From the NCBI GenBank assembly GCA_023266575.1, contig JAHFPV010000004.1, positions 62,001 to 126,000 of the forward strand: DNA of 64,000 bases, read 5' to 3'. This document shows positions 34,782-60,908 of the stretch, in pieces. Each line of letters opens with the position of its first letter. The first letter of the stretch is position 1. Source of the stretch: Sphingobium sp. (GTDB lineage: Bacteria; Pseudomonadota; Alphaproteobacteria; Sphingomonadales; Sphingomonadaceae). A program made the position numbers and the translations under genes. A model generated the notes under the pieces. The model was given only the letters and a program-made list of their open reading frames with translations. It was not told the DNA's origin and ran no database searches.

Positions 34782-36122
34782 TCACGCCATCAGCGCCGAT
34801 ACCGGCTTGTTGGTTTCCATGCTGTCGGTCCCCCATGTATCGACCGGCACACCCATCAACTGCTGCAATGTCAGGCCGACGCGGCTGACCGGTGTGCCTT
34901 CGCCTGCAATGTGCAGACCGGTTTTCATCCGTCCGCCTGCCGACCCGGCGGTCATCATCGGGATATTGTCGATGGTGTGGAATTTGGCGAATTCGGTTTC
35001 GCTATGCGCAAAGACGAGCGTGTTATCGAGCAGGGTCCGGTCCCCTTCCTGCACCGCGTCCAGCGCCTTGATGAAATAGGTCCAGGCTTCCATGCATTTG
35101 TTGACGTAGAAGGTGACCTCCGGCTGATAGCCCAGGCGATTGTCCATCACCTCCTCATGGGTCAGCTGATGATGGGTGATGGTGCTGCCGATGCGGGTCA
35201 GCGACGATGCACCATTGTTGAAATTCATGTTGAACACCCGGACATTGTCGCACGCCAGCGCCATGACCAGCAGGTCGGTCATCACCTGATGATTGGCCAT
35301 GACATTTTCGATTTCCGCATTGACCGGGCGGTCGGCGACGGATTGCGGCACGACGCAGCTTTGCATCGGTTCGGGCTTGGTCAGCTGCACGTCGAGCTGC
35401 TTTTCCAGCTGGCGCACCGACGTGAAATATTGGTCGAGTTTCTGCCGATCCGCCGCGCCCAGTCGCGCGTTGAGCGCCTGTCGCTGGTCCGCGACGCCCG
35501 ACAACACGCTGCGCCGGGCGAGCAGCGCTGGATCAGGGGTGAAGGTCGCACTGTTGGGATCGCGGAAATCGGGACCGAAGATACGGGTGTAGAGCGCGGC
35601 GGGGGAGACTTCAGCCGGGTTGAGATTGCCATTGCCGCGCCCCGACAGCGAGTTGCGCGGGTCGCCCGTCGCCGACAGTTCGAGTGAACGGAAGCGGGTG
35701 CGGGTGCCGATGACGTCACCGATCGCCACGTCGAAGGAGGGCGCGGGCAGTCCCCGGTCGGACGCAATCGCCATGCCGGTGCGGATGCCGATGCCGCCGC
35801 TGATATGCGGCAGGTTGGGCTTGCCATCCAGCGGCAGGCTGAAATCGCCAAGAATGTTGATCTTGTGCTTGAGCGGCGCAATCGCGGCCAGTTCTTCCTT
35901 CAGGTCATAGTCCGCGCCGATCTTGCTGGGATACCAGCGGGGCGGATTGACCCCCAGACCCCAGAACCAGGTGCCAAAGCGCACCGGCACCGGGGCGCCG
36001 GTCGCGGCCATCGCTGCGCCATTACCGTCCAGAAATGCGTCAAGCAGCGGCAGGCCGACCGCGACCGCCATGCCGTTGACCATGCCGCGCAACGCGGTGC
36101 GGCGGTTCAGGGTGAAGCTCAT
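34782..36122 (-). CDS. DUF1552 protein, Tat-exported
   Basis: A 446-residue exported protein with a twin-arginine leader (LNRRTALRGMVNGMAVAVG). Typical DUF1552 sequence follows: WFWGLGVNPPRWYP, LKHKINILGDFSLPLDGKPN and HISGGIGIRTG; the C-terminal part has NTLVFAHSETEFAKFHTIDNIPM and GGRMKTGLHI. The family is known from planctomycetes and various proteobacteria as partner of DUF1592-type cytochrome-like proteins, but its reaction is not established. It is last in a seven-gene operon and overlaps the DUF1592 gene by ATGA. Tat export suggests folding or cofactor binding in the cytoplasm. Confidence 0.9.
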   Translation of the reverse strand: MSFTLNRRTALRGMVNGMAVAVGLPLLDAFLDGNGAAMAATGAPVPVRFGTWFWGLGVNPPRWYPSKIGADYDLKEELAAIAPLKHKINILGDFSLPLDGKPNLPHISGGIGIRTGMAIASDRGLPAPSFDVAIGDVIGTRTRFRSLELSATGDPRNSLSGRGNGNLNPAEVSPAALYTRIFGPDFRDPNSATFTPDPALLARRSVLSGVADQRQALNARLGAADRQKLDQYFTSVRQLEKQLDVQLTKPEPMQSCVVPQSVADRPVNAEIENVMANHQVMTDLLVMALACDNVRVFNMNFNNGASSLTRIGSTITHHQLTHEEVMDNRLGYQPEVTFYVNKCMEAWTYFIKALDAVQEGDRTLLDNTLVFAHSETEFAKFHTIDNIPMMTAGSAGGRMKTGLHIAGEGTPVSRVGLTLQQLMGVPVDTWGTDSMETNKPVSALMA

Positions 36123-37804
36123 GGATGGACTCCTGTGCGGGTGGTCATGGCGATTTGGGGTGCAGCGAGCGGCGTAGCGGCGATGCGATAGGCCTGCGGC
36201 ATGGTGGCGACGCGCAGGAAGAGCGACGCAATGCGATAGCCATCCTTGGCAAAATCCTGCTCGATCCCGCCCGCCAATCCACCGTTATCCTCCGGCACGC
36301 GGCCAGTGGCATATTGGAAGGCGCGGCCTGCGACACATTCGGTGGTGGACTTGCTGGCGGCGAGCGCCTTGCCCAGGCCGACATTGCCCTGGAACGCGAC
36401 CCCTTCGAACAGGCCCGCCGTGTCGATCGGCGCGCCATTCTCGCGCGGGCGAAAGGCACCGATGCCATCGAATTTTTCGAGCGGCAGGCCGAGCGGATCG
36501 GTGATCCTGTGGCAGGCGGCGCAGACCGGGTCGCTGTTATGCGCGGTCAGGCGCATCTTGGCGGTCGGCATGGCGGTGCTGGTCACGTCCTGCACCGCGG
36601 TGAAATTGACGTTGCCGGGCGGGTTGGGGACGGGTTGGCACAGCAATAATTCACGGACCGCCCGGCCACGCAGGGTCGGCGAACTGCGCCCCGAATGGGC
36701 GTAGAGCGCCAGGAACCCCGCCTGGCCCAACAGACCCGCCCGGTCATCACCCAGCGCAAATTCATACGGCACCCAGCCCTGCGTCGATGTGACCTTCGCC
36801 TGATAGAGCGGCCCCAGCGCGCGGTTGATGAAGGTGCGGCGGGTGGTGAACAGGTCGCGATAATCGCCCTTCTGCGTCACCAATTGATCGACGATCATCC
36901 GCAGCATCTGTTCCGACAAAGCCGACGCGACATCGGGGTTGAAGCGGGGATAGACGATCTGATCCTTGGCCATTTCGTCGAACTTCTCGAACAACAGCAT
37001 GTCGGCGAAGAAGGCGCGCACGCCATCCTCCAGCCGGGGGGAGCGGACCATGCGCCCGGCGATGGCCGCCAGTTGCGCCGGGTCGGTCAGCTGGCCCTGC
37101 TCCGCCGCCTTCAGCAGCGCTTCATTGGGCGTCGTGTTCCACATCAGGAAGCTCAGCCGCGATGCGCGCGCCAGATTGTCGAGCCGCAGGCCACCGAGAC
37201 TTTCGGGGTCGGGTTCAGCGCTTTCCACAACATAGAGGAAATGCGGCGACACCAGCATGGCGGCCAGCCCCAGTTCCAGCCCCTTGTGGAAAGAGCCGCT
37301 CGATTCCGTCGCCTTGCCTGCCATCATGACATAGGCCGCGACTTCCTCCTGCGTCATCGGACGACGGAAGAGATAGCGGCCCACCGGCACCAAAACGCGC
37401 GCGGCGCAATCGGGATCGGGAGCCGCCGCGTCGCGTGGCGCGCAATCCATGAACTGGGCGCGATGGTCGGCATCGAATATCTGCGCCGCGATCGCACGGG
37501 CCATGGCATCAAACTGTTCAAGACCTGCGGGCGAAATGGTGGAGGATGCCGCGCCGGTCGCGATCAGTTCATGCACCGGGCGCACGATCGGCTCGAACCG
37601 GCCCGCCACGCGGATGTCGGGGCCGAATATGTCGGCGATGCTGTTGCGATATTGCGCTTCGGTCAGGCGGCGCATCGTGACGATCTGGCCGAGCGGTTCC
37701 TTGAGCGGAGCAAAAGAAGGCTCAGCCGATGCACTATGCGGCGCTTTTTCCGCCGAGCAGGCGGTCAGACCCAGCGCGACAATGAGGGAGAGCGCACGGA
37801 TCAT
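36119..37804 (-). CDS. DUF1592-type multidomain protein with a C-terminal haem-binding motif
   Basis: A 561-residue exported protein; LGLTACSAEK at the N-terminus looks like a lipobox. Domains in order appear to be DUF1587-like (MRRLTEAQYRNSIADIFG), DUF1595/1592-like (YLFRRPMTQEEVAAYV, RASRLSFLMWNTTPNEALL), DUF1588-like (RAGLLGQAGFLALYAHSGRS) and DUF1585-like (CVAGRAFQYATGRV). A CxxCH motif (PVCAACHRITDPLG) suggests one covalent c-type haem. Together with DUF1552 this forms a recurrent uncharacterised pair. Its neighbours encode electron carriers, which supports a redox role. Cellular location: periplasm or outer membrane, inferred. Confidence 0.88.
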   Translation of the reverse strand: MIRALSLIVALGLTACSAEKAPHSASAEPSFAPLKEPLGQIVTMRRLTEAQYRNSIADIFGPDIRVAGRFEPIVRPVHELIATGAASSTISPAGLEQFDAMARAIAAQIFDADHRAQFMDCAPRDAAAPDPDCAARVLVPVGRYLFRRPMTQEEVAAYVMMAGKATESSGSFHKGLELGLAAMLVSPHFLYVVESAEPDPESLGGLRLDNLARASRLSFLMWNTTPNEALLKAAEQGQLTDPAQLAAIAGRMVRSPRLEDGVRAFFADMLLFEKFDEMAKDQIVYPRFNPDVASALSEQMLRMIVDQLVTQKGDYRDLFTTRRTFINRALGPLYQAKVTSTQGWVPYEFALGDDRAGLLGQAGFLALYAHSGRSSPTLRGRAVRELLLCQPVPNPPGNVNFTAVQDVTSTAMPTAKMRLTAHNSDPVCAACHRITDPLGLPLEKFDGIGAFRPRENGAPIDTAGLFEGVAFQGNVGLGKALAASKSTTECVAGRAFQYATGRVPEDNGGLAGGIEQDFAKDGYRIASLFLRVATMPQAYRIAATPLAAPQIAMTTRTGVHP

Positions 37805-38931
37805 TGTTGCGCCACCTTGGTCGCGGGCGGGGTATCATTGACGAAGGCGGGAATGGCCCCCGCCTCCATCGCGCTGGAGATACGACGGCACTGGCCGGTC
37901 GCCGGATCGCGATCGCCATCGGCCAGCTTCTTGAGCGCCGCATACATGGCGGCGCAGTCATAGCCCGCCGTCGTGGCCGCCCCTTCCCCGCCGATCGAGG
38001 CGCTGGCCATGATATCCCAGATTGGCTGGTAACCACCGACCAGTCCTTTAAGCGACCCGTCCGGCTGGAAGGTCAGACGCAGGCGCGCCTTGGTCATGTC
38101 ATATTCGGTGCGCTTGCCGCGAATGTCGCGTTCGGACCCCTGCCCCCAGGTCTGGCGCAGGCGGATTTGGGCCGGATCGGTCATCAACACGCCGTCGACG
38201 ATGCGGCCTTTCAGCACATTGCGATGCTGCGCATTGGCAACGACGGTGTAGCTGGCGTCGCGCATGAAATTTTGCTTGGAATCGACGACTGCGCGATCCT
38301 CGCTATTGGCGTAGATCACGCTGACGTCGGGATCGTCCTGCAAACTGTCCACGCCGGTCAGCAGAAGCACCTGTGTATGTTCGCCACTGACGAGAAACTG
38401 GGTCAGCCCGCGCACAATGTCGCCGCCGGTGCCATCGACCCCGCGCCACGTCCGCACGCAGCCCATGGCGCGCCATGTCTGGTTGTCCACTCCGGTCTGG
38501 CCCGTGGGGCTCGTGAAGGGTTCATGGCCGCAACCGTCCGCGTCCGCGCCTTCGTCCAGATCCAGTCCCTGCGCGACCTTTCCCTGCACAATGCGCTGGG
38601 GCGGGCGATCGAACAACGCCGGGTGGGTGCAGATATTGGTCCCCTGCGGCCCGAAGGCGTATCCGGTCCATCGCTTGGTCAGCTCCGCTTCGTTCGGCTT
38701 TTCCAGCAGGCGCAGCCGTTCTGCGGGTGCCTGGGTCTGGAGATAATTCTCTCGCAGCGTGGCGGCGAGGCCGTCCGGGCAGTCCTGCGCGCCCTGATGG
38801 ATAGCGGGCGCGAAATGGGTGAAAACAAAGCCTAGCTCGCCATTGGCGGGCGGCGCGGGCAAGGCCTGTGCCTGCGCGATCGGGGCGAGGAAGCTTGCCG
38901 TGCATAGGGCTGCGATCCTGTAGGCGATCAT
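37801..38931 (-). CDS. Secreted protein of unknown function between cytochrome-type and DUF1592 genes
   Basis: I do not recognise this 376-residue protein. It has a clear signal peptide (IAALCTASFLAPIAQAQA). The mature part is soluble, with at least six cysteines (QDCPDG, NICTHP, DGCGHEP, MGCVRT, YDCAAM, GQCRRI) and an acidic stretch (GLDLDEGADADGCGHEP). Repeated phrases such as VDGVLMTDPAQIRL and LKGLVGGYQPIWDIM suggest a large beta-rich domain. ATG 38931 follows AAGGAG. It overlaps the DUF1592 gene by ATGA, so it is likely part of the same exported complex or pathway. Confidence 0.72.
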   Translation of the reverse strand: MIAYRIAALCTASFLAPIAQAQALPAPPANGELGFVFTHFAPAIHQGAQDCPDGLAATLRENYLQTQAPAERLRLLEKPNEAELTKRWTGYAFGPQGTNICTHPALFDRPPQRIVQGKVAQGLDLDEGADADGCGHEPFTSPTGQTGVDNQTWRAMGCVRTWRGVDGTGGDIVRGLTQFLVSGEHTQVLLLTGVDSLQDDPDVSVIYANSEDRAVVDSKQNFMRDASYTVVANAQHRNVLKGRIVDGVLMTDPAQIRLRQTWGQGSERDIRGKRTEYDMTKARLRLTFQPDGSLKGLVGGYQPIWDIMASASIGGEGAATTAGYDCAAMYAALKKLADGDRDPATGQCRRISSAMEAGAIPAFVNDTPPATKVAQQ

Positions 38932-38945
38932 GATGCTCTCCTTCA

Positions 38946-39719
38946 TCAGGGGTTCAACGCCACGCCGTCGGCGGGCACGGGCTGGCGCGGGGCGGCGCGA
39001 TAGACGGGCTTGCCGCGATAGACCCATTGCGCGGATTCGGCGGTCTGGCGGACGCTCCATTGCCCCACGCTCCGCCGCGCCATGCCGGTGGAATGCGGAC
39101 TCCAGCCGCAGGGATCGGCGCAGTCTGCGGATTTCGGCCTGAACAGCCAGTTGCCCTGCGCATCGGCCAGCATATAGGCACCATCGACCAGCCGCGCGGT
39201 GACATCGGGCGGCGCGACCAGCTTGGGCGGCGGCGGCAGATATTTGAGGCTATTCCACAAATAGCCGTCCGCTCCGTCATGCTCGGTCGATCCGGGACGA
39301 GCATCTTTTCGCGTGAACACCAGATGGACCTTCTTATAGACCCATTGCGGCCCGGCCGGTCCTTCCATCACCGTCCAGTCGGGGTTGTCCGACGCTGGTT
39401 TCGTCGCCGCCACTTCCTGACGCGGTCCACCAAAGGCGCGCGGGACAGGGGAGATCGGCACGCCGCGTGGGGCCAACAATGGCTCCCATTGGGTCAGGCA
39501 AGCGCCGCTGCAATAAAGGGCGGGCTGTCCGGTTCGGCCGGTCGCGGCACGCATATCCATGCCATAAAGGGTGAAGCCGCGCCGGTCGGTATAGACGCGC
39601 GCCTTGACCGAAATGCCGCGCGGAAAATGATCGGCCGCCGCAACTGGAATGTCGAGGTCAGCCGCCTGCGCCCAGAGCGGTGCGGGGAAGAAAGCCAGCA
39701 GGATAAGCGCGCGACGCAT
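38946..39719 (-). CDS. Secreted protein with two PF03640-like repeats
   Basis: A 257-residue exported protein (signal to WAQA). Two repeats resemble the COG4315/PF03640 secreted repeat. The first is VYTDRRGFTLYGMD, then CSGACLTQWEPLLAP, closed by PQWVYKKVHLVF. The second is ARLVDGAYMLADAQGNWLF, then CADPCGWSP, closed by AQWVYRGKPVYRA. Such repeats are usually single, in small secreted or lipoproteins of unknown role. The paired cysteines in each repeat could bind a metal or form disulfides. It overlaps the cytochrome gene by one base (TGATG). Function is unknown; context is electron transfer. Confidence 0.72.
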   Translation of the reverse strand: MRRALILLAFFPAPLWAQAADLDIPVAAADHFPRGISVKARVYTDRRGFTLYGMDMRAATGRTGQPALYCSGACLTQWEPLLAPRGVPISPVPRAFGGPRQEVAATKPASDNPDWTVMEGPAGPQWVYKKVHLVFTRKDARPGSTEHDGADGYLWNSLKYLPPPPKLVAPPDVTARLVDGAYMLADAQGNWLFRPKSADCADPCGWSPHSTGMARRSVGQWSVRQTAESAQWVYRGKPVYRAAPRQPVPADGVALNP

Positions 39720-40171
39720 CAGCGCTTGTCCTCGACCCGGAAGCTGCGGTGGCAGGTCGCGCAACTGCCGCCCAGCGCCTTGGCCGCGATCCGCATTTTC
39801 GCCACGTCGCCGCTGCCTGCGACGCCGGCAAAGGCATTGGCCTGCGCGACGAAGCCGTCCTGCGCCTTTTTGAAGGCGGGTGCCTGGCTCCAGATTTCGG
39901 CCTTCGCCGCTGTCTTTACACCGGGGCGCGGGCCGCTGCCCGCCGGGAACCAGCCGACATGCTGGCGCGCATAATCGCGAATCTGGCGCGCGGAAATCTG
40001 CACTACATAAAGCTGCGGACTGCCCGATTTCAGCTCGTCATTGATATTCTTGAACGCCGCACCGACTTCGCGGAAGCCCGCGATCCGGGTCGCGACGATA
40101 TCGCCGGGCGCAGCGATCAGCGGCGATGTGAGCAGGGCTGCAAAACCGGCTGCGATCAGGAATTTCCGCAT
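39719..40171 (-). CDS. Cytochrome c556/c'-type protein
   Basis: A 150-residue periplasmic cytochrome. It has a signal peptide to AAP, then a helical body starting IVATRIAGFREVGAAFKNI, with the haem site near the C-terminus in GGSCATCHRSFR (CxxCH). This position of the motif and the four-helix size are typical of class II cytochromes (c' and c556). It probably carries electrons in the periplasm. It is third in the operon, after HiPIP and cytochrome b561 genes, so an electron path from b561 to soluble carriers is plausible. Confidence 0.87.
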   Translation of the reverse strand: MRKFLIAAGFAALLTSPLIAAPGDIVATRIAGFREVGAAFKNINDELKSGSPQLYVVQISARQIRDYARQHVGWFPAGSGPRPGVKTAAKAEIWSQAPAFKKAQDGFVAQANAFAGVAGSGDVAKMRIAAKALGGSCATCHRSFRVEDKR

Positions 40172-40190
40172 GGTCTATCCTTTCTTGGGT

Positions 40191-40847
40191 TCAGAGCGCA
40201 GGTTCGGCAAAGAGCCACCAGGCGAGTGCCGCCGACAGCGACAGCGCGACGAGCAATGCCAATGGTCCGGCCCGGCGCATCGCCATCGGCGCTTGGGCGG
40301 CGGTGCTGCCTGTCACCATCGGTCCGATCAGGTTGCGCCTTCGCACCACGAGGTAGAACAGGACCGCCAGCACATGCAGCACGATGAGCGCTTGCAGCAC
40401 GGTGAAGCAGACCCCGTGGATGGCGGAGGCCAACCGCCCCTGATCGAAATCGACAAGGTGGGAAAGCGGCCCGGACTCGATGCCGTCTATGTCGACCGCA
40501 AACAGCCCGCTCACCACCTGCGTGCCTAATATCGCCAGCATCGCGACGACGCTCCAGCCGCCCAGCGGGTTATGGCCGACGCTGGCAGGTGCCTGCTTAT
40601 CGGCCAGATAGGCGCGGATGGCGCGCGGGCCTTTCAAGAAATAGGCAAAACGCGCCGTGTCGGAGCCAACCACGCCCCAGATCAGGCGGAAGGCGATGAG
40701 GAACAACACCGCCTGCCCCGACAGGCGATGCCAGTCCATGCGGTAATTTTCCGCGCTCCACCAGGAAAAGCCGATCAGCACGACCAGCGCCCAGTGGAAC
40801 AGGCGGACGGGCAAGTCCCAGACGAACTGGCGCGGCGCGCGCGTCAT
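40191..40847 (-). CDS. Cytochrome b561-type membrane protein
   Basis: A 218-residue inner-membrane dihaem b-type cytochrome. His ligands are visible in PVRLFHWALVVLIGF, DWHRLSGQAVLFLIAF and in the LQALIVLHVLAVLFYL helix, with a further His in AIHGVCFTV. Four core helices plus a fifth C-terminal one (LALLVALSLSAALAWWLF) are predicted. Such proteins move electrons between the quinone pool and periplasmic carriers. It lies 5 bp after the HiPIP gene and 19 bp before the c556-type gene, consistent with a dedicated membrane link for this operon. Confidence 0.9.
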   Translation of the reverse strand: MTRAPRQFVWDLPVRLFHWALVVLIGFSWWSAENYRMDWHRLSGQAVLFLIAFRLIWGVVGSDTARFAYFLKGPRAIRAYLADKQAPASVGHNPLGGWSVVAMLAILGTQVVSGLFAVDIDGIESGPLSHLVDFDQGRLASAIHGVCFTVLQALIVLHVLAVLFYLVVRRRNLIGPMVTGSTAAQAPMAMRRAGPLALLVALSLSAALAWWLFAEPAL

Positions 40848-40852
40848 CGCGA

Positions 40853-41155
40853 TCAGCCCTTCTTCGCCCAGCTGTCACACACGCCATTGGCCGGAACAAT
40901 GCCGCCGCTCAGCAATGCGCATTGGCCGCAATCCGCGCCCTTGCCGGTGAAGAAGGCGCAGGTCGCGCAATGTTTGGCAGGATCAGGCGCGGGGGATTTG
41001 AAGCCGAGCGACTTGCGCATACTCTTCTGCGCTGCGGACAGGGTGGCAGGATCGGCACAGGACGCCGCATGGGCCTGAGCAGCGATCGCCAATGGCGCGA
41101 TAGCGACCAGCCCCAATATGGTCCGGCGTGTCAGCATCCCATCGCTATCCGGCAT
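40853..41155 (-). CDS. High-potential iron-sulfur protein (HiPIP)
   Basis: A 100-residue periplasmic [4Fe-4S] electron carrier. The Tat-type leader is LTRRTILGLVAIAPLAIAA, standard for HiPIPs. Mature cysteines follow the family order: HCATCAFF, GADCGQCALL and ANGVCDSWAKK, with aromatic residues around the last one. One cysteine more than the usual four is present (DCGQC). ATG 41155 has GGAG 7 bp upstream. It is the first gene of the operon that ends with DUF1552 and probably the soluble carrier for the whole system. Confidence 0.9.
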   Translation of the reverse strand: MPDSDGMLTRRTILGLVAIAPLAIAAQAHAASCADPATLSAAQKSMRKSLGFKSPAPDPAKHCATCAFFTGKGADCGQCALLSGGIVPANGVCDSWAKKG

Positions 41156-47908: not shown

Positions 47909-48252
47909 CCTGCCCGACTCATGGAAATGGGCGGAGAAAAGCAGCGCGGACCAAGCCCTAACCCTGCTAATCCCAGAATAAATCTCTAAGCCGACAGCGC
48001 GGCGTGACAGATCAAAACGGCTCAAGGTTGGCCATCCATCTCAATCAGAGCATCAGAGTTGAGGTTGATAGGCTATCAAGACGCTCCAAACCCATCCGCT
48101 GCGACCCGACACCAAGGTTATGGTTTGGCGATATCGCAATGCAACAAGTCGGTATTATCGACGACTCTCACCGCTGGTTTGACTTTCGAGGCAAAATAGG
48201 CGCATTAAACGCCAACCAATTTACTGCCCATGATTCGGCGATGCGAGGCACC

Positions 48253-49443
48253 ATGTCGTTTACAGTCAACACACTGCGTAACGTCACCACAGCCTGCCAG
48301 CAAATGCGCGATCATATCAAGACGATCGTGTTCCGGCCGGACAATCACAAGACGCTCGATATCACTTTCGGCCCGACAGTCGCCGCCGAACTGATCGGCC
48401 GGACCCCCGAAGCGCTGGCCAAGGCGGAAGCCAAAGGCCGCCTGCCCCAGCCCAAGCAACTGCCTAACGGCCGCCGCTACTACACGCTGGAGGATCTGAC
48501 ACAGATTCGCACCGCGCTTGGCATACAGGTGGGCAAGCAGCCAGACGAAGATGCGGTCGTGCTGGCAGTGCAGAATTTCAAGGGCGGGGTCGGCAAAAGC
48601 ACGATCACCAAGCATCTGGCCGACTATCTCGCCCTGCACGGGTACAGCGTGCTGGTGATCGACTGCGACCCGCAGGCCTCCACCACAACGATGTTCGACA
48701 TCCAGCCCGAAACGCTGATCGATGACGAACAGACGCTGGGTGCGTTCCTCTCGCCCCGCAGCACCTTCAGCGATTTTTCGCAAACGATCCGCGACACGCC
48801 ATGGCCGACGATCAAGATCGTGCCGTCCAGCCTGGGGCTGCAGGACGCCGAATGGGATCTGACCGCGACCCTTCGCGAAGGCGGACAGGCCGTGCGCGAA
48901 GGCTTGCAGGCGCTGCGTATCGGCATTGCCAGCGTGACCAAGGATTTCGACATCATCCTGCTCGACCCGCCGCCAGCCATGGGCTTTCTGGGTCTCAACG
49001 TCATGGCCGCGGCAACCGGCCTGCTGATCCCGGTGCCTGCGCGTCAGCTCGACTATCTCTCGACCATCCATTTCATGGACACGATCGCGGACAATATCGA
49101 GATTCTCGAAGAAAATGGCACGCCGGTGGACTATGGCTTCATCCGAGTGGTCTGCTCCGCCTTCTCGCCCAGCAAGCCGGGTGAGAATGATATGTGGCGG
49201 ATCATGCAGGCTACCTATGCCGGGCTGCTGCTGGGGCAACCGATCCTGGCGTCGGAGGAAATCAAGAACGCTACCCAGGCGTTCCGCTCCATCTATGAAT
49301 CCAAACCGTCCGCCTCGCACCAGACCTATACGCGCTGCCGCGACAATCTAGACGCGGTCTTTGCCGAGGTCGAGCAGCAGATCCGCCAGCAATGGCCATC
49401 GACCAGCCTGACCGCTGACGCCAGCGTGGGTGTTGCCGCATGA
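48253..49443 (+). CDS. parA: Partition ATPase ParA
   Basis: A 396-residue plasmid partition ATPase of the ParA type with an N-terminal regulatory domain. The N-terminal about 115 residues include a MerR-like or HTH-like segment (AELIGRTPEALAKAEAKGRLP and NGRRYYTLEDLTQIR). The deviant Walker A is QNFKGGVGKSTITKHLADYL, then VIDCDPQASTT and ILLDPPPAMGFL. It moves the replicon DNA with ParB and probably represses its own promoter. ATG 48253 is chosen as the first start giving family-like sequence; ATG 48241 is next. It overlaps parB by ATGA. Confidence 0.93.
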   Translation: MSFTVNTLRNVTTACQQMRDHIKTIVFRPDNHKTLDITFGPTVAAELIGRTPEALAKAEAKGRLPQPKQLPNGRRYYTLEDLTQIRTALGIQVGKQPDEDAVVLAVQNFKGGVGKSTITKHLADYLALHGYSVLVIDCDPQASTTTMFDIQPETLIDDEQTLGAFLSPRSTFSDFSQTIRDTPWPTIKIVPSSLGLQDAEWDLTATLREGGQAVREGLQALRIGIASVTKDFDIILLDPPPAMGFLGLNVMAAATGLLIPVPARQLDYLSTIHFMDTIADNIEILEENGTPVDYGFIRVVCSAFSPSKPGENDMWRIMQATYAGLLLGQPILASEEIKNATQAFRSIYESKPSASHQTYTRCRDNLDAVFAEVEQQIRQQWPSTSLTADASVGVAA

Positions 49444-50459
49444 GCCGCCGGTCCCTGATCAGCGAAGCACTGGCCGCCTCGCTCAACGATCCTGCCCCCG
49501 CGCCCGTCCCGGCGAGCGATGCCAATCCTGCGGCTCCGCGCCCCAATTTCACCAACAAACGGCTGGAAGCCTTTGGTGAGGCGGCGCGGATCGTCAAACG
49601 CCCGACGATCCGATTGAAGCCGTCGGAATGTTCGATCTGGTCGGGCAATGCGCGCGACTATTCGCTGCTCGATGAAAATCGTCTGCGCAGCCTGATCGAT
49701 TCTATCCTGGCCGAGGGCGGCAATCGCATCCCCGCCGTGGTGCGCCGCACGCCGCAGGGCGAACTGCCCTATGAACTGGTCACCGGCACGCGGCGGCACT
49801 GGGCGATCGCCTGGCTCAACGCTAATCATTACCCCGACATCGAACTGATCGCGATCATCGAGGATCTGGACGATGAAGCAGCCTTCCGCCTGGCCGATAT
49901 CGAAAATCGCGAGCGGGAGGATATTTCCGATCTCGAACGCGGGGCGAACTACAAGGCGGCGGTCGATCGCTTCTATGGCGGCGTTCAGTTGCGCATGGCC
50001 GAGCGGCTCAAAATCTCCAAGTCGCAGCTGTCGCGCTATATTGCGCTCACCGAAATCCCGCCCCTGCTGGTCAGCGCCTTTCACTCGCCGATGGACCTTC
50101 AGGCCAAATATGCCGAGAAACTCCTGCCCCTGCTGCGTGATCCTACCGCACGCGCCAAGCTGGAGGCCGCGGCTGATCAGATCGCGTCGGAACAGAGCTT
50201 TCGCCGGTCTGGTGATGAACCGCCCATAGCCGGTTCGGAAGTGCTGGCGCGCCTGCTCAAGGCTGTAACTACCAAGGGCCGGGTGCAGAAGGCGACGATC
50301 GCAGCTGCGGACGGCGCGACGGTTGGGCAGGTCGACAAGGACCAGCAGAAACTTTTGACGCTGACGCTGATGCCATCCGACCTGTCGACCGACGATATAT
50401 TGGCGGCGCTCCGCCCGGTGATCGAGCAGGCGAAGATCATGCGGGCACGGCGGCGCTAG
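49440..50459 (+). CDS. parB: Partition protein ParB
   Basis: A 339-residue DNA-binding partner of ParA. The ParB N-domain shows LDENRLRSLIDSILAEGGNR, then VTGTRRHWAIAWL, the box II-type nuclease-like or CTPase motif. The central HTH is VQLRMAERLKISKSQLSRYI. The C-terminus from about 270 is a probable dimerisation domain. It binds a centromere-like site on the replicon; candidates are the inverted repeat and iteron-like motifs near parA. It overlaps parA by ATGA and is followed by an AT-rich 100-bp gap before repA. Confidence 0.93.
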   Translation: MSRRSLISEALAASLNDPAPAPVPASDANPAAPRPNFTNKRLEAFGEAARIVKRPTIRLKPSECSIWSGNARDYSLLDENRLRSLIDSILAEGGNRIPAVVRRTPQGELPYELVTGTRRHWAIAWLNANHYPDIELIAIIEDLDDEAAFRLADIENREREDISDLERGANYKAAVDRFYGGVQLRMAERLKISKSQLSRYIALTEIPPLLVSAFHSPMDLQAKYAEKLLPLLRDPTARAKLEAAADQIASEQSFRRSGDEPPIAGSEVLARLLKAVTTKGRVQKATIAAADGATVGQVDKDQQKLLTLTLMPSDLSTDDILAALRPVIEQAKIMRARRR

Positions 50460-57601: not shown

Positions 57602-59431
57602 ATGAGTTGCAAGCCCACGCGGACGCCAGCGCCCGATACATTCGATATCCCTGCGCTGCGCGAAAAATATCGCGAGGAGCGCGACAAGCGGCTGCGCGGC
57701 GACGGGCAGGGGCAATATCAGCCCACGACCGACGACACGACCCACAGCTATGACGAGGATCCCCATCAGCCCGTCGTTCCGCGCGATCGGATCGTCGAGG
57801 AACTGGACGTGCTGGTGCTGGGCGCGGGCTTTGCCGGCGTGCTGGCGAGCTATCATCTGACCAAACAGGGCGTCACCAATTTCCGCAATATCGACCATGC
57901 CGGCGACTTTGGCGGGGTCTGGTACTGGAACCGCTATCCCGGCATCCAGTGCGATAATGACGCCTATTGCTATCTGCCGCTGCTCGAAGAAACCGGCTTC
58001 ATGCCGTCCAAGAAATTCGCCGATGGCGCGGAAATTCAGGGTTATATCAAGCAGATCGCGCAGACATTCGGCTTTCACGACCGCGCCCTGTTCCACACCC
58101 TCATCACCGCGCTGAAATGGGATGAGGGCATTCAGCGCTGGCGCGTCGCCACCAGCCGGGGCGACGAATTCCGCGCCCGCTTCGTCATCATGGGCTGCGG
58201 CGTCCTCAACATGCCCAAGCTGCCGGGGATCGAAGGGATCAACCAGTATAAGGGCAAGATTTTCCACACCGCCCGCTGGGACTATGGCTATACTGGCGGC
58301 AGTTACGAAAATCCTGTGCTGGACAGGCTGGGCGACAAGCGCGTCGCCATCCTTGGCACGGGTGCCACCGCGATCCAGGCGGTGCCGCATCTCGCCCGCT
58401 ACGCCGAGCAACTCTACGTCATCCAGCGCACGCCTTCGACCGTGGACGAACGGCCCAATCCGCCGACCGATCCCGACTGGGCGGAATCGCTGCAACCGGG
58501 CTGGCAGGCGGAGCGGCAGGCCAATTTCCACCGCGCCGCGATGGAATTTTTCATGCCCGGCGAACAGGATCTGATCTGCGACATCTGGACCGAAATCGCG
58601 CGCAACCTCCACGCCGAGCTGGAAGCCGAAGGCTGGCCGCAACTCTCGCCTGAAGAATTTATGGCCCGGCGCGAAGTGGTGGATTATCGCGTCATGGAAC
58701 GGCTGCGCGCGCGCGTCGATGAGATGGTGAAGGACGAGGCGACCGCCGCCTCGCTCAAGCCTTGGTATCGTTTCCTGTGCAAGCGCCCGCTGTCCAGCAA
58801 CGATTTTTACGCGGCCTTCAACCAGCCCAATGTGAAGCTGATCGACGTCGCGGATTCGCGCGGGCTGGAACGGATGACGGAAAAGGGCTTCGTGTCGAAC
58901 GGCGTCGAATATGAAGTCGATGCGATGATCTTCGCCAGCGGTTTTGAAGTCACCAGCGACCTCAAGCGGCGCTGGGGCATCGACGTGGTGGAGGGGCGGG
59001 GCGGCCTGTCCATCTACGATCATTGGGCTGATGGTCCGCTGACCCTGCACGGCACCATGACCCATGGTTTCCCCAACCAGTTCTTCATCGGCTATATTCA
59101 GGGCGGCCTCAATGCCAGCGTCACCGAACAGTTCGGGCGGCAGGCGCAGCATATCGCCCACATCATCCATGCGACGATGGAAAAGGGCGCAAGCTCGGTC
59201 GAAACCAGCAGGGAAGCGCAGGACGCCTATGTCCAGCATTTTCACGAGGTGGAATATGACACCTCCGCTTTCCAGATCGAATGCACCCCCAGCTACTTCA
59301 CCAATGAAGGACAGGTAAAAGCCCCCTGGGCGCTGTTCCGCAGCTACGGGCCGGGCTGGGCTGCGTTCCAGACCTTGCTGGAGGAGTGGCGCGCAAAGGG
59401 CGATCTGGCGGGCATGGAGTTGCGGTCATGA
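57602..59431 (+). CDS. Flavin-dependent Baeyer-Villiger-type monooxygenase
   Basis: A 609-residue FAD/NADPH monooxygenase that inserts oxygen beside a ketone, giving an ester or lactone. The FAD fold is LDVLVLGAGFAGVLASYHL, then GDFGGVWYWNRYPG. The type I BVMO fingerprint appears as YKGKIFHTARWD (F/Y-x-G-x3-H-x3-W-P/D form). The NADPH fold is VAILGTGATAIQAVPHL, and a second conserved Asp-rich DAMIFASGFE lies later. An N-terminal extension of about 65 residues is present, as in phenylacetone monooxygenase relatives. GGAG precedes ATG 57602. Confidence 0.92.
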   Translation: MSCKPTRTPAPDTFDIPALREKYREERDKRLRGDGQGQYQPTTDDTTHSYDEDPHQPVVPRDRIVEELDVLVLGAGFAGVLASYHLTKQGVTNFRNIDHAGDFGGVWYWNRYPGIQCDNDAYCYLPLLEETGFMPSKKFADGAEIQGYIKQIAQTFGFHDRALFHTLITALKWDEGIQRWRVATSRGDEFRARFVIMGCGVLNMPKLPGIEGINQYKGKIFHTARWDYGYTGGSYENPVLDRLGDKRVAILGTGATAIQAVPHLARYAEQLYVIQRTPSTVDERPNPPTDPDWAESLQPGWQAERQANFHRAAMEFFMPGEQDLICDIWTEIARNLHAELEAEGWPQLSPEEFMARREVVDYRVMERLRARVDEMVKDEATAASLKPWYRFLCKRPLSSNDFYAAFNQPNVKLIDVADSRGLERMTEKGFVSNGVEYEVDAMIFASGFEVTSDLKRRWGIDVVEGRGGLSIYDHWADGPLTLHGTMTHGFPNQFFIGYIQGGLNASVTEQFGRQAQHIAHIIHATMEKGASSVETSREAQDAYVQHFHEVEYDTSAFQIECTPSYFTNEGQVKAPWALFRSYGPGWAAFQTLLEEWRAKGDLAGMELRS

Positions 59432-59531
59432 TCGCCGGGGGGATGATGTCACCGCGCGTCCCGCTTTCACTTGGGTCAAGCCTGTCTGTCGCGATATTCG
59501 GACGCGCGGGATCAGGATGCGAGAGGATGGC

Positions 59532-60908
59532 ATGAATAGCCCGACCAACATCGATGTGGACGATCTGACCAAGCCACTGACCTATCCGACCGAGGGGTTC
59601 CTGTCGAAGGACTATGCGGCGGCGGAGAAGGAATATCTGTGGCCAAAGGTCTGGCAGATGGCGTGCCGGGTCGAAGAATTACCGAACGTCGGCGACTGGC
59701 TTACCTATAATATCTGCGACGATTCGATCATCATCGTGCGCACCGCGCCAGACCGGCTGAAGGCCTATTTCAACGTCTGCCCGCATCGCGGCCGTCAGCT
59801 GGTCAATACGCCTGACACCGTCCATTCGGTGCGCGGCAACGGACGCAGGAATTTCATCTGCGGCTTCCACGGCTGGACCTTCGATATCGAAGGCGACAAC
59901 ACCTATATTCTCGATCCGCAGGACTGGCAGGGCGCATTGACGCCCGACTGCACCCATTTGTCGGAGGTCAAGGTCGACACATGGGGCGGCTGGGTCTGGG
60001 TCCATATGGATATGGATGCAGAGCCGCTGGACGCATTTCTGGGCGATGCCGGGCGCATATTGTCGCATTTCGAACTGGACAAGATGCGCTACAAATGGCG
60101 CAAATGGGTCGTCTATCCGGCCAACTGGAAGACCGCGCTCGAAGCGTTCATGGAACCCTATCATGTCGCTGGCACCCATAGCCAGCTGCTCGCTTATGGT
60201 GACTATTACGCCTATAGCGCCGCCTATGGCCTGCACGGCGTCAGCGGCTTCGACCAGCGCGACCCGGCCTTCAGCATGAGCCAGAGCAGCAGCGTGACTC
60301 GCGCGGGCAAGGGCGACGATCCGCGCCGCTCGACTTACGAACTGATCCGCGAAAATTACGAAACGCTCAACTATGCGGCCTCTACCGAGACGCTGGTCAA
60401 TGCCGCCAGCCGCCTGGTCGACGAACTGCCCGAAGGCACGCCGCCTGCCGATGTCATCGCCCACTGGATGAAGTCGGCCAAGGCTGACGATGCGGCGCGC
60501 GGCGTCATCTGGCCGGAAATTCCGCCCGAAATCATGTCGGAAGCGGGCCTTGCCTGGAACATCTTTCCCAACATGTCGGTGCTGCACGGGATCACCTTCG
60601 CGCTTTGCTATCGCACGCGCCCCTATGGCGACGATCCCAATATGTGCATTTTTGAATCCTACGCGATCGAGCGTTTCCCTGAAGGGGAAGAACCGCAGAC
60701 GCAATGGGACAATGCGCCCGCGACCGCCGAAGGCTGGGGCGCTGTCTTGGCGCAGGATTTTTCCAACATGGAATGGGTGCAGAAGGGGATGAAGTCGCGC
60801 GGTTTCCGCGGGCCGCTGCCCAATCCGCATCAGGAACGCAAGATCACCAATTTTCACCGCAACCTAGCCGCGTACATGGGTACGGGCGCACCGAGGCACC
60901 TGAAATGA
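59532..60908 (+). CDS. Rieske non-haem iron oxygenase alpha subunit
   Basis: A 458-residue oxygenase component. Rieske ligands are Cys83-x-His85 (CPHRG) and Cys110-x2-His113 (CGFHGW). The 24-residue distance between the pairs is longer than the usual 15-17, so a loop is inserted (NTPDTVHSVRGNG). The mononuclear iron site is in FMEPYHVAGTHSQL (two His). No small beta subunit or ferredoxin gene is adjacent, so the reductase partner is elsewhere. GAGAGGA precedes ATG 59532. It overlaps the ThDP enzyme gene by ATGA. Confidence 0.9.
   Translation: MNSPTNIDVDDLTKPLTYPTEGFLSKDYAAAEKEYLWPKVWQMACRVEELPNVGDWLTYNICDDSIIIVRTAPDRLKAYFNVCPHRGRQLVNTPDTVHSVRGNGRRNFICGFHGWTFDIEGDNTYILDPQDWQGALTPDCTHLSEVKVDTWGGWVWVHMDMDAEPLDAFLGDAGRILSHFELDKMRYKWRKWVVYPANWKTALEAFMEPYHVAGTHSQLLAYGDYYAYSAAYGLHGVSGFDQRDPAFSMSQSSSVTRAGKGDDPRRSTYELIRENYETLNYAASTETLVNAASRLVDELPEGTPPADVIAHWMKSAKADDAARGVIWPEIPPEIMSEAGLAWNIFPNMSVLHGITFALCYRTRPYGDDPNMCIFESYAIERFPEGEEPQTQWDNAPATAEGWGAVLAQDFSNMEWVQKGMKSRGFRGPLPNPHQERKITNFHRNLAAYMGTGAPRHLK

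Follow-up and report, generated by a model that had tools for sequence, protein, structure and literature searches.

The closest described relatives of the operon considered here are the DUF1592/DUF1552 (PSD-PSCyt3/HXXSHH) pairs of Planctomycetes and Verrucomicrobia, which have the same domains. According to PMC5615132, PSCyt2/PSCyt3 genes usually adjoin two families of unknown genes and have no assigned function, and a domain comparison puts DUF1587, 1588, 1592 and 1595 among anaerobic-respiration domains (PMC7789669). Cbp2D/CjX183 of Cellvibrio japonicus is likewise a redox protein that is exported and combines DUF1587 with c-type domains (PMC8981238), and LcoA/BcnA likewise joins a membrane b561 to an exported partner (PMC9113575). 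The operon considered here joins to the DUF1592/DUF1552 pair a third partner that is nearly constant, together with HiPIP, c' and b561.

The window, that is, the whole stretch of DNA analysed, comprises 64,000 nt of Sphingobium sp. GCA_023266575.1 (contig JAHFPV010000004.1, 62,001–126,000, forward strand), a soil-type bacterium. Seven genes at 34782..41155, all on the minus strand, were confirmed as an operon where an earlier note had placed it:

40853..41155, minus strand: HiPIP gene, 100 aa, RR-type signal; PF01355, 37 bits
40191..40847, minus strand: cytochrome b561 family gene, 218 aa; PF01292, 78 bits
39719..40171, minus strand: cytochrome c'-type class II gene (gene 3), 150 aa, CATCH near the C-terminus; PF01322 (Cytochrom_C_2), 79.9 bits
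38946..39719, minus strand: rep15 (gene 4), 257 aa, exported repeat protein, Lipoprotein_15-like, two CxxxC..W repeats
37801..38931, minus strand: U380 (gene 5), exported, family without a Pfam entry, core partner
36119..37804, minus strand: DUF1592-type gene, 561 aa, single haem motif (CAACH), lipobox as judged by eye; five Pfam domains above cut-off
34782..36122, minus strand: DUF1552 (HXXSHH family) gene, 446 aa, RR-type signal, THEE subtype; PF07586, 173.5 bits
41352..43414, plus strand: OmpR-type response regulator and histidine kinase, divergent from the operon; possible regulators

From HiPIP to DUF1552, the intergenic gaps are 5, 19, -1, 14, -4 and -4 bp (with gene 5 starting at ATG 38931, preceded by AAGGAG), in agreement with the earlier description of seven one-strand genes that overlap or lie at most 19 bp apart; the DUF1592 and DUF1552 genes are adjacent, overlap by 4 bp and have both Pfam domain sets. 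Export signals, judged by eye only, comprise two RR-type and three Sec-like starts (genes 3, 4 and 5) and one lipobox, in keeping with the earlier statement that all proteins but b561 bear export signals, two of them Tat-type. The divergent pair, which might regulate the operon, resembles EnvZ/OmpR at scores below the model cut-offs, and strong matches to both regulators lie on the strand opposite to the operon in seven relatives (L029–L033, L035 and L051). Promoter, terminator and Rfam scans yielded nothing useful.

Compared with the Planctomycetes/Verrucomicrobia pairs, U380, rep15 and HiPIP are added here. Unlike Cbp2D, the window protein has no carbohydrate-binding or YceI-like domain, and whereas LcoA is paired with BcnA, the companions of b561 here are HiPIP, c' and the U380/DUF1592/DUF1552 triad. 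The same genome also has a longer DUF1592/1552 pair (G000:C14); in contrast to this longer type, the window DUF1592 lacks an N-terminal region with an extra CxxCH. No description of the operon was found in the open-access literature. Within open-access PMC, no paper joined the terms DUF1552 and DUF1592 or paired DUF1592 with HiPIP or b561, and a search for HiPIP with sphingomonad names returned no HiPIP term among the matches listed. An operon in a cultivable Sphingobium provides a concrete redox hypothesis for DUF1592/DUF1552-type pairs, which still lack a function (PMC5615132).

The triad and its variable partners

How constant is this arrangement? Within 6 kb of DUF1552, across 79 related loci drawn from the best 80 of 446 relatives and skewed to close kin, we find DUF1592 at 79/79 loci and U380 at 76/79, together with rep15 at 50, cytochrome c' at 30, HiPIP at 26 and b561 at 23. 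Gene linkage within a core triad of U380, DUF1592 and DUF1552 is well supported. The accessories recur in many different gene orders: 14 runs consist of the bare triad, and HiPIP, c' and b561 are all absent from the commonest run, which is U380>DUF1592>DUF1552>rep15, at 11 loci. When absence was counted on the 55 of 79 loci that are fully flanked, 12 had none of rep15, HiPIP, c' and b561. HiPIP genes occur near the triad, in differing orders, in Sphingomonadales, Caulobacteraceae, Gammaproteobacteria and Myxococcales, as the records are labelled (several being MAGs). The earlier note would have counted as refutation a survey in which HiPIP and cytochromes had no link to DUF1592/1552 outside this strain, and its claim withstood this test. 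Its proposal that the pair works in periplasmic electron transfer is partly supported, but may not carry over to all such pairs, given the 12 accessory-free loci.

Mapped on the DUF1552 tree, HiPIP presence needs nine changes, at least seven of which are forced by starred branches. On the same tree b561 and c' covary (mean of 5.0 the same way versus 0.0 opposite, median p 0.0625), while the median p for HiPIP with b561 or c' is 0.25.

Genome surveys covered 147 genomes of the order (Sphingomonadales) and 398 of the phylum. Since Pfam detects HiPIP in just 3/147 genomes of the order, every one of them inside the module, the linkage of HiPIP to the module exceeds chance. Across the phylum, HiPIP occurs in 35/398 genomes and adjoins DUF1552 in the Sphingobium genome only; U380 is found in 2/398, both times about 2 kb or less from DUF1552. 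Cytochrome c' does not mark the module exclusively, and we rejected it for that use: it is present in 61/147 genomes of the order, 55 of which have no DUF1552, and three further genomes with U380 have it more than 100 kb off or on another contig. The Sphingobium genome itself has only two Cytochrom_C_2 genes, one at each of its two DUF1592/1552 loci.

Wider neighbourhoods were counted over 88 loci (L020–L107), where clusters antisense over operon genes were treated as shadow reading frames and left out. Catabolic neighbours among these loci include TonB receptors (27) and SDR proteins (29).

The encoded proteins

Motifs were counted over 80 DUF1592, 82 DUF1552, 26 HiPIP and 31 cytochrome c' homologues. 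The HiPIP scores 37 bits against a Pfam cut-off of 22 and matches PDB entry 3h31 at E 3.3e-10; its likely cluster cysteines, read off the alignment, are 63/66/79/93, and the four-Cys pattern recurs in 26/26 linked homologues. Its RR motif reads LTRRTILG by eye. The b561 profile match reaches 78 bits (cut-off 30.1).

The third gene had been taken for a c556-type cytochrome. In cytochrome c556 the sixth ligand is a Met in helix 1, whereas F33 of gene 3 aligns to residue 16 of cytochrome c', a column that holds Phe, Tyr or Leu in 30/31 homologues, Glu in one and Met in none. We therefore reject the c556 identity in favour of a c'-type, the name borne by 29/32 PDB sequences listed for this protein. 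CxxCH lies close to the C-terminus in 31/31 linked homologues and reads CATCH in the window copy.

The DUF1592-type protein consists of DUF1587/1595/1592/1588/1585 (PSD3-PSD5-PSD4-PSCyt3-PSD2), all over the Pfam cut-off, and exactly one CxxCH is present in 80/80 homologues. The lipobox of the window copy reads LTAC by eye; a crude lipobox pattern fits 26/80 homologues. A single-sequence search of the PDB gave no match.

DUF1552 begins with an RR motif, NRRTALRG by eye, of which R7 and R8 are invariant in 35 aligned sequences; these positions were used in place of RR counts (82/82 for DUF1552, 25/26 for HiPIP), which we set aside because the search pattern was open to the whole sequence, beyond the N-terminus. 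Where the family name HXXSHH gives SHH, the window motif HHQLTHEE has THEE, shared by at least 70/82 homologues, while nine give no match to the search pattern. The PDB sequence search returned only acetylcholinesterases (E 0.16 and worse). An AF2 model (pLDDT 84.1) gave 26 matches of the sulfatase/alkaline-phosphatase superfamily at E<=0.001, with TM-scores of just ~0.3–0.4, which weakly suggests that DUF1552 may have a fold of this kind. Its RR-type signal and its haem-protein neighbours set it apart from that superfamily. Sulfatases bear the signature C/S-x-P-x-R; by eye, none was seen in the window DUF1552.

Two genes had been entered as unknowns, a status that U380 keeps and gene 4 loses in part, as 14/22 aligned members of the rep15 family match PF03640 (Lipoprotein_15). 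The window copy of rep15 has no such match at E 0.01, its sole match being the SCO0930 family (E 0.0018), and no match in the PDB sequence search; C70, C74, C200 and C204 are invariant in 22 aligned sequences. U380, previously listed merely as an unknown, is the most constant partner besides DUF1592. Searches and residue numbers refer to a 380-residue reading (37804–38943), which opens four codons before the probable start ATG. The window protein has no Pfam or PDB sequence match, and 49 family members gave only five Pfam matches, each in a single member (E 0.04–0.1). Its AF2 model (pLDDT 90.6) retrieved nothing from the PDB at E<=0.001; we placed no trust in the best match (E 0.0096), which was to the sensor domain of PknI.

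Proposed function and alternatives

What could such an operon do? Because the exported proteins travel with a haem protein, an Fe-S protein and a membrane cytochrome, often in relatives too, an electron-handling machine in the cell envelope is suggested. On balance, we lean slightly towards a cell-envelope oxidoreductase module with a fixed triad core, working in the oxidative direction. Electron transfer would fall to DUF1592 as the subunit with c-type haem, in this operon a lipoprotein. DUF1552 would be a presumably metal-type subunit, Tat-exported in folded form, with an alkaline-phosphatase/sulfatase-like fold and an altered active site, while U380, exported as well, would be the third subunit of a putative complex. 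Rep15, HiPIP, c' and b561 would serve as wiring picked by lineage, in some order of carriers, linking the haem of DUF1592 via b561 to the quinone pool or via HiPIP to a high-potential acceptor. The core would oxidise a bulky organic substrate in catabolism, with electrons probably leaving through these carriers. We counted in favour of a redox module the linkage numbers, the confinement of HiPIP in the order, the rarity of U380 in the phylum, the conserved haem, Cys and RR motifs, the changes of HiPIP presence on the tree, the b561–c' covariation, the pairing of the two Cytochrom_C_2 genes, the catabolic neighbours and the domain comparison of PMC7789669. Counted against it were the accessory-free loci, the commonest run and the bare-triad runs, the median p of 0.25 for HiPIP with b561 or c', the commonness of c', HiPIP elsewhere in the phylum, HiPIP-free steroid copies, the 26/80 lipobox, the kin-biased loci and a DUF1552 fold class made up of hydrolases. 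A bolder version, which we put forward tentatively and hold with less confidence, is that the triad may be a new class of envelope oxidoreductase. It would unite a protein with c-type haem, a metalloprotein exported by Tat whose alkaline-phosphatase-type scaffold has turned to redox work, and a newly folded third subunit; HiPIP/c'/b561 would connect it lineage-specifically to the quinone pool, and steroid/saponin catabolism would be among its uses.

The same carriers might run the other way, from quinol through b561 and HiPIP/c' to the DUF1592 haem, which would reduce an O2- or peroxide-using enzyme much as CjX183, the c-type domain of Cbp2D (annotated with DUF1587), activates LPMOs in vitro (PMC8981238). 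P450 (8), Rieske (6) and PQQ-dehydrogenase (6) families near some of the 88 loci would suit such a flow, but no oxygenase family occurs near more than 8 of them, and no LPMO was found among 10 neighbour-family representatives or 10 further proteins scanned. HiPIPs, moreover, are usually high-potential carriers, a better fit to accepting electrons, and we judge reverse flow unlikely. Still less probable, in our view, is a triad that acts as a hydrolase system around a sulfatase-like DUF1552, its redox genes being co-regulated passengers of catabolic clusters: the likeness of the model to sulfatases and alkaline phosphatases, the 12 loci without accessories, GH106 in 7 of the 88 loci, and GH3 and TonB receptors beside some copies are consistent with it, yet the haem motif sits in DUF1592 itself in every homologue, and HiPIP, by Pfam, keeps to the module in the order and appears in differing gene orders.

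An envelope stress defence, wherein c' would bind NO or peroxide, b561 handle superoxide or lipid radicals, and the core repair oxidised envelope material, draws on the Burkholderia b561 LcoA and lipocalin BcnA, which protect from lipid peroxyl radicals, and on CybB, named a superoxide:ubiquinone oxidoreductase (both from PMC9113575). The c'-type identity of gene 3 and the EnvZ/OmpR-like regulators (below model cut-offs) point the same way; with identified neighbours that are catabolic, not stress-related, and a rare, patchy distribution, we nonetheless hold this reading to be very improbable.

For the oxidoreductase module, the short operon is open to deletion, and haem c, Fe-S and haem b offer spectroscopic handles. 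Some copies may act on a substrate of steroid or saponin type: steroid-type catabolic genes lie near some plasmid and Chol11 copies, most loci being without them, and the steroid-type neighbours of plasmid copies suggest the first substrates to try. The copies with such neighbours (L072 and plasmids) have c' and b561, and HiPIP was not found there. Steroid catabolism was not accepted as the general role, as matches occur in few of the 88 loci: KshA-like in one (L064), HsaA-like in one (L055) and HsaC-like in none. The main text of the tomatine paper does not mention 'cytochrome', 'TonB' or 'hypothetical'; relatives of the TomTYG46 acyl-CoA dehydrogenases are found in 3 of the 88 loci (L053, L072 and L080).

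The operon and its proteins

The window lies on contig G000:C8 of a 3.6-Mb genome. Its seven module genes run on the minus strand from 41155 to 34782. The intergenic distances are 5, 19, −1, 14, −4 and −4 bp, bearing out the earlier note's account of a one-strand array spaced by at most 19 bp or overlapping. Five of the seven have a Pfam family. The DUF1552 protein is 98% identical to that of S. terrigena EO9, and the closest relatives at the locus, among the best 80 of 446, are Sphingobium. Gene 3 encodes a class II cytochrome that had been labelled c556-type; we reject this in favour of a c'-type protein because 29 of 32 PDB sequences listed as matches are named cytochrome c' (many being variants of one protein; the others are 'cytochrome c', twice, and 'cytochrome c, class II', once) and because its F33 column lacks Met. 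F33 aligns to residue 16 of cytochrome c', the distal haem-pocket residue; of 31 linked homologues, 30 have Phe, Tyr or Leu in this column, one has Glu and none has Met.

Gene 4 (rep15) encodes a two-repeat CxxxC protein, of the Lipoprotein_15 type by way of its relatives (14 of 22 aligned members), its own score giving no match. For gene 5 (U380), no Pfam match was found, with 49 aligned members yielding five single-member matches at E 0.04–0.1, and its AF2 model (pLDDT 90.6) had no PDB fold match at E ≤ 0.001. Most of the six cysteines of the window's U380 are gone from relatives at three loci (L022, L023 and L024), the C162 column being kept, and C55 too where covered; the alignment suggests that further disulfides were lost together. 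DUF1592 homologues carry exactly one CxxCH (80/80); a lipobox, as judged by a crude pattern, is present in 26 of them. At least 70 of 82 DUF1552 homologues have THEE where the family name has SHH. The residues R7, R8, H106, D131, H318, H322, D366 and H382 are invariant across 35 DUF1552 sequences (three of the longer-pair type); these residues and an RR-type signal suggest that the protein has a metal site and is exported by Tat. The AF2 model of DUF1552 (pLDDT 84.1) matches sulfatases, LtaS and alkaline phosphatases (26 at E ≤ 0.001, TM ~0.3–0.4).

Linkage of core and accessory genes

Which of these genes travel together? We scanned GTDB contigs with a DUF1552 subtype alignment and retained the best 80 of 446 relatives (79 loci), calling family members at the loci by purpose-built profiles and score thresholds. 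The survey of DUF1552, DUF1592 and HiPIP co-occurrence proposed in the earlier note came out in favour of linkage: within 6 kb of DUF1552, DUF1592 occurred in 79 of 79 loci, U380 in 76, rep15 in 50, cytochrome c' in 30, HiPIP in 26 and b561 in 23. Two of the three loci without U380 start inside DUF1592 at a contig end (L047 and L055), and the third (L052) has a weak match (81 bits) close to one. Where at least 6 kb was available on both sides (55 loci), the counts were 55 for DUF1592, 55 for U380, 38 for rep15, 26 for c', 18 for HiPIP and 18 for b561; 26 loci had one or more of HiPIP, b561 and c', and 12 had none of the four accessories. Since the set is skewed to close kin and includes near-copies (L029–L031), the counts for neither 79 nor 55 loci are population frequencies.

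Counting from the other genes, 147 genomes of the order held U380 in four, DUF1552 in nine and a Pfam-model HiPIP in three. All three HiPIP genes sit in the module, in genomes from three families (f1, f2 and f5); random placement would put all three within the four U380 genomes with a chance of 4/518,665 (~8e-6), a figure that ignores relatedness. In the fourth U380 genome (G117), a module HiPIP that had escaped the Pfam model was recovered by BLAST (L020, E 2.4e-17), and none was found in its second module copy (L021). A second U380 copy in G001 (L023) sits at the end of a 16.5 kb contig that has no DUF1552. Across 398 genomes of the phylum, U380 occurred in two, both times ~2 kb or less from DUF1552, and HiPIP in 35, none beside DUF1552 outside the own genome. 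Seven other phylum genomes had a DUF1552 match: five lacked HiPIP, one (G422) had it on a different contig and one (G507) ~72 kb from a weak match.

Of the order's 147 genomes, 61 had cytochrome c', and 55 of these lacked DUF1552; the three U380 genomes besides the own one had it >100 kb off or on a different contig. The own genome has two Cytochrom_C_2 genes in total, one in each of its two DUF1592/DUF1552 loci, which also hold two of its five b561 genes. The second of these loci (L025, G000:C14:4000-23500) and its counterparts in relatives (L026 and L027) have a longer DUF1592/DUF1552 pair followed by c' and b561, so that a c'/b561 link is seen for both subtypes; U380 was not found in any of the three. 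Besides c' and b561, L025 shows the longer DUF1592 and an ankyrin-repeat-like gene.

Gene order and the DUF1552 tree

Gene order is highly variable between loci, with further orders beyond those tabulated.

Gene orders at the compared loci (runs of recognised genes on one strand, gaps <500 bp)
U380, DUF1592, DUF1552, rep15: 11 loci
U380, DUF1592, DUF1552: 7 loci
DUF1592, DUF1552, U380: 7 loci
HiPIP, b561, c', rep15, U380, DUF1592, DUF1552 (the window's order): 5 loci
c', rep15, U380, DUF1592, DUF1552, VOC, HiPIP, MarR: 3 loci
U380, DUF1592, DUF1552, c', b561: 3 loci
HiPIP, DUF1592, DUF1552, U380: 1 locus
DUF1592, DUF1552, HiPIP, c', U380: 1 locus

On a DUF1552 tree of 60 rows, built by a quick method and with seven long end branches flagged, HiPIP required 9 changes, of which starred branches force at least 7; shuffled labels required 17.8 (0/500 as low). 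HiPIP is thus clustered on the tree, yet repeatedly gained or lost. Changes in b561 and c' went jointly (5.0 the same way, 0.0 opposite, median p 0.0625), and HiPIP leaned the same way with b561 and with c', not significantly (median p 0.25 each). Such repeated reassembly in differing orders is what functional association predicts. Five loci labelled Vicinamibacteria or Marinimicrobia (L059, L060, L061, L075 and L105) group with Rhodospirillaceae-labelled rows and are perhaps mis-binned or transferred.

A candidate envelope oxidoreductase and its genomic settings

The best reading of the module is an envelope oxidoreductase, wherein a fixed core of U380, DUF1592 and DUF1552 would be joined to interchangeable wiring. 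HiPIPs are usually high-potential carriers; for this reason, and given the catabolic setting, we favour substrate oxidation, although b561 could serve either the oxidative or the reductive direction. The reductive alternative is real for CjX183 of Cbp2D, and one domain, DUF1587, is common to Cbp2D and a module protein. A domain comparison lists DUF1587, 1588, 1592 and 1595 among anaerobic-respiration domains, naming no function (PMC7789669), which would fit a respiratory link. No description of the module was found in the open-access literature.

Among neighbours at 88 loci (L020–L107; family names taken from representatives), SDR (29) and TonB receptors (27) are both common gene families, followed by an exported glyoxalase-fold protein (22), P450 (8), CHRD (7), GH106 (7), Rieske (6) and PQQ dehydrogenases (6). 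The small glyoxalase-fold protein (L041:11287-11829 and 21 other loci) often lies directly 3' of DUF1552, and before HiPIP in several loci. CHRD-domain proteins (Pfam for one representative) stand upstream of U380 in the MAG loci L075, L079, L086, L087 and L105.

U380 also matched 13 plasmid records, in one case with 80% or more of the query covered. Eleven are from Sphingobium with Tom- strain names, and the other two from Novosphingobium RL4 and S. herbicidovorans. TomTYG65, TomTYG72, TomTYG74 and TomMM15 are named where an alpha-tomatine study describes its isolates (PMC10653915), and we infer the same origin for the remaining seven. In TomTYG46, a run of U380, DUF1592, DUF1552, c' and b561 (L113:14425-19862) has a TonB receptor 1.5 kb and a GH3 ~12 kb upstream, and two acyl-CoA dehydrogenases 2.5–5 kb and a KshA-type Rieske protein ~8.5 kb downstream. 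Plasmid pMSHV of S. herbicidovorans carries HsaC-like, HsaA-like and KshA-type genes within ~6 kb after b561; the first two score 269 and 398 of 450 bits, both below NCBIfam equivalog cut-offs, and KshA_C lies above its Pfam cut-off. In the bile-salt degrader Chol11, one locus (L072) has acyl-CoA dehydrogenases, a TonB receptor and other neighbours in common with TomTYG46. All three copies have c' and b561, and HiPIP was found in none; of the 88 loci, one has a KshA-like gene and one an HsaA-like gene. A steroid role therefore serves as a lead for certain copies and does not extend to the HiPIP type seen in the window. At the U380 position of pMSHV (L115:4989-6334), two overlapping hypothetical proteins are annotated, the match falling in the second; the gene is possibly broken or mis-annotated.

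Within the window, ParA-like (AAA_31) and ParB-like (SopB HTH) genes at 48004-50456 and a G+C dip at 50–54 kb suggest that the contig may be a plasmid or second replicon. At 57602-60905, a monooxygenase that reaches 630 of the 1100 bits required by the pentalenolactone D synthase PtlE model is followed by a Rieske oxygenase, a putative terpenoid- or steroid-like catabolic patch.
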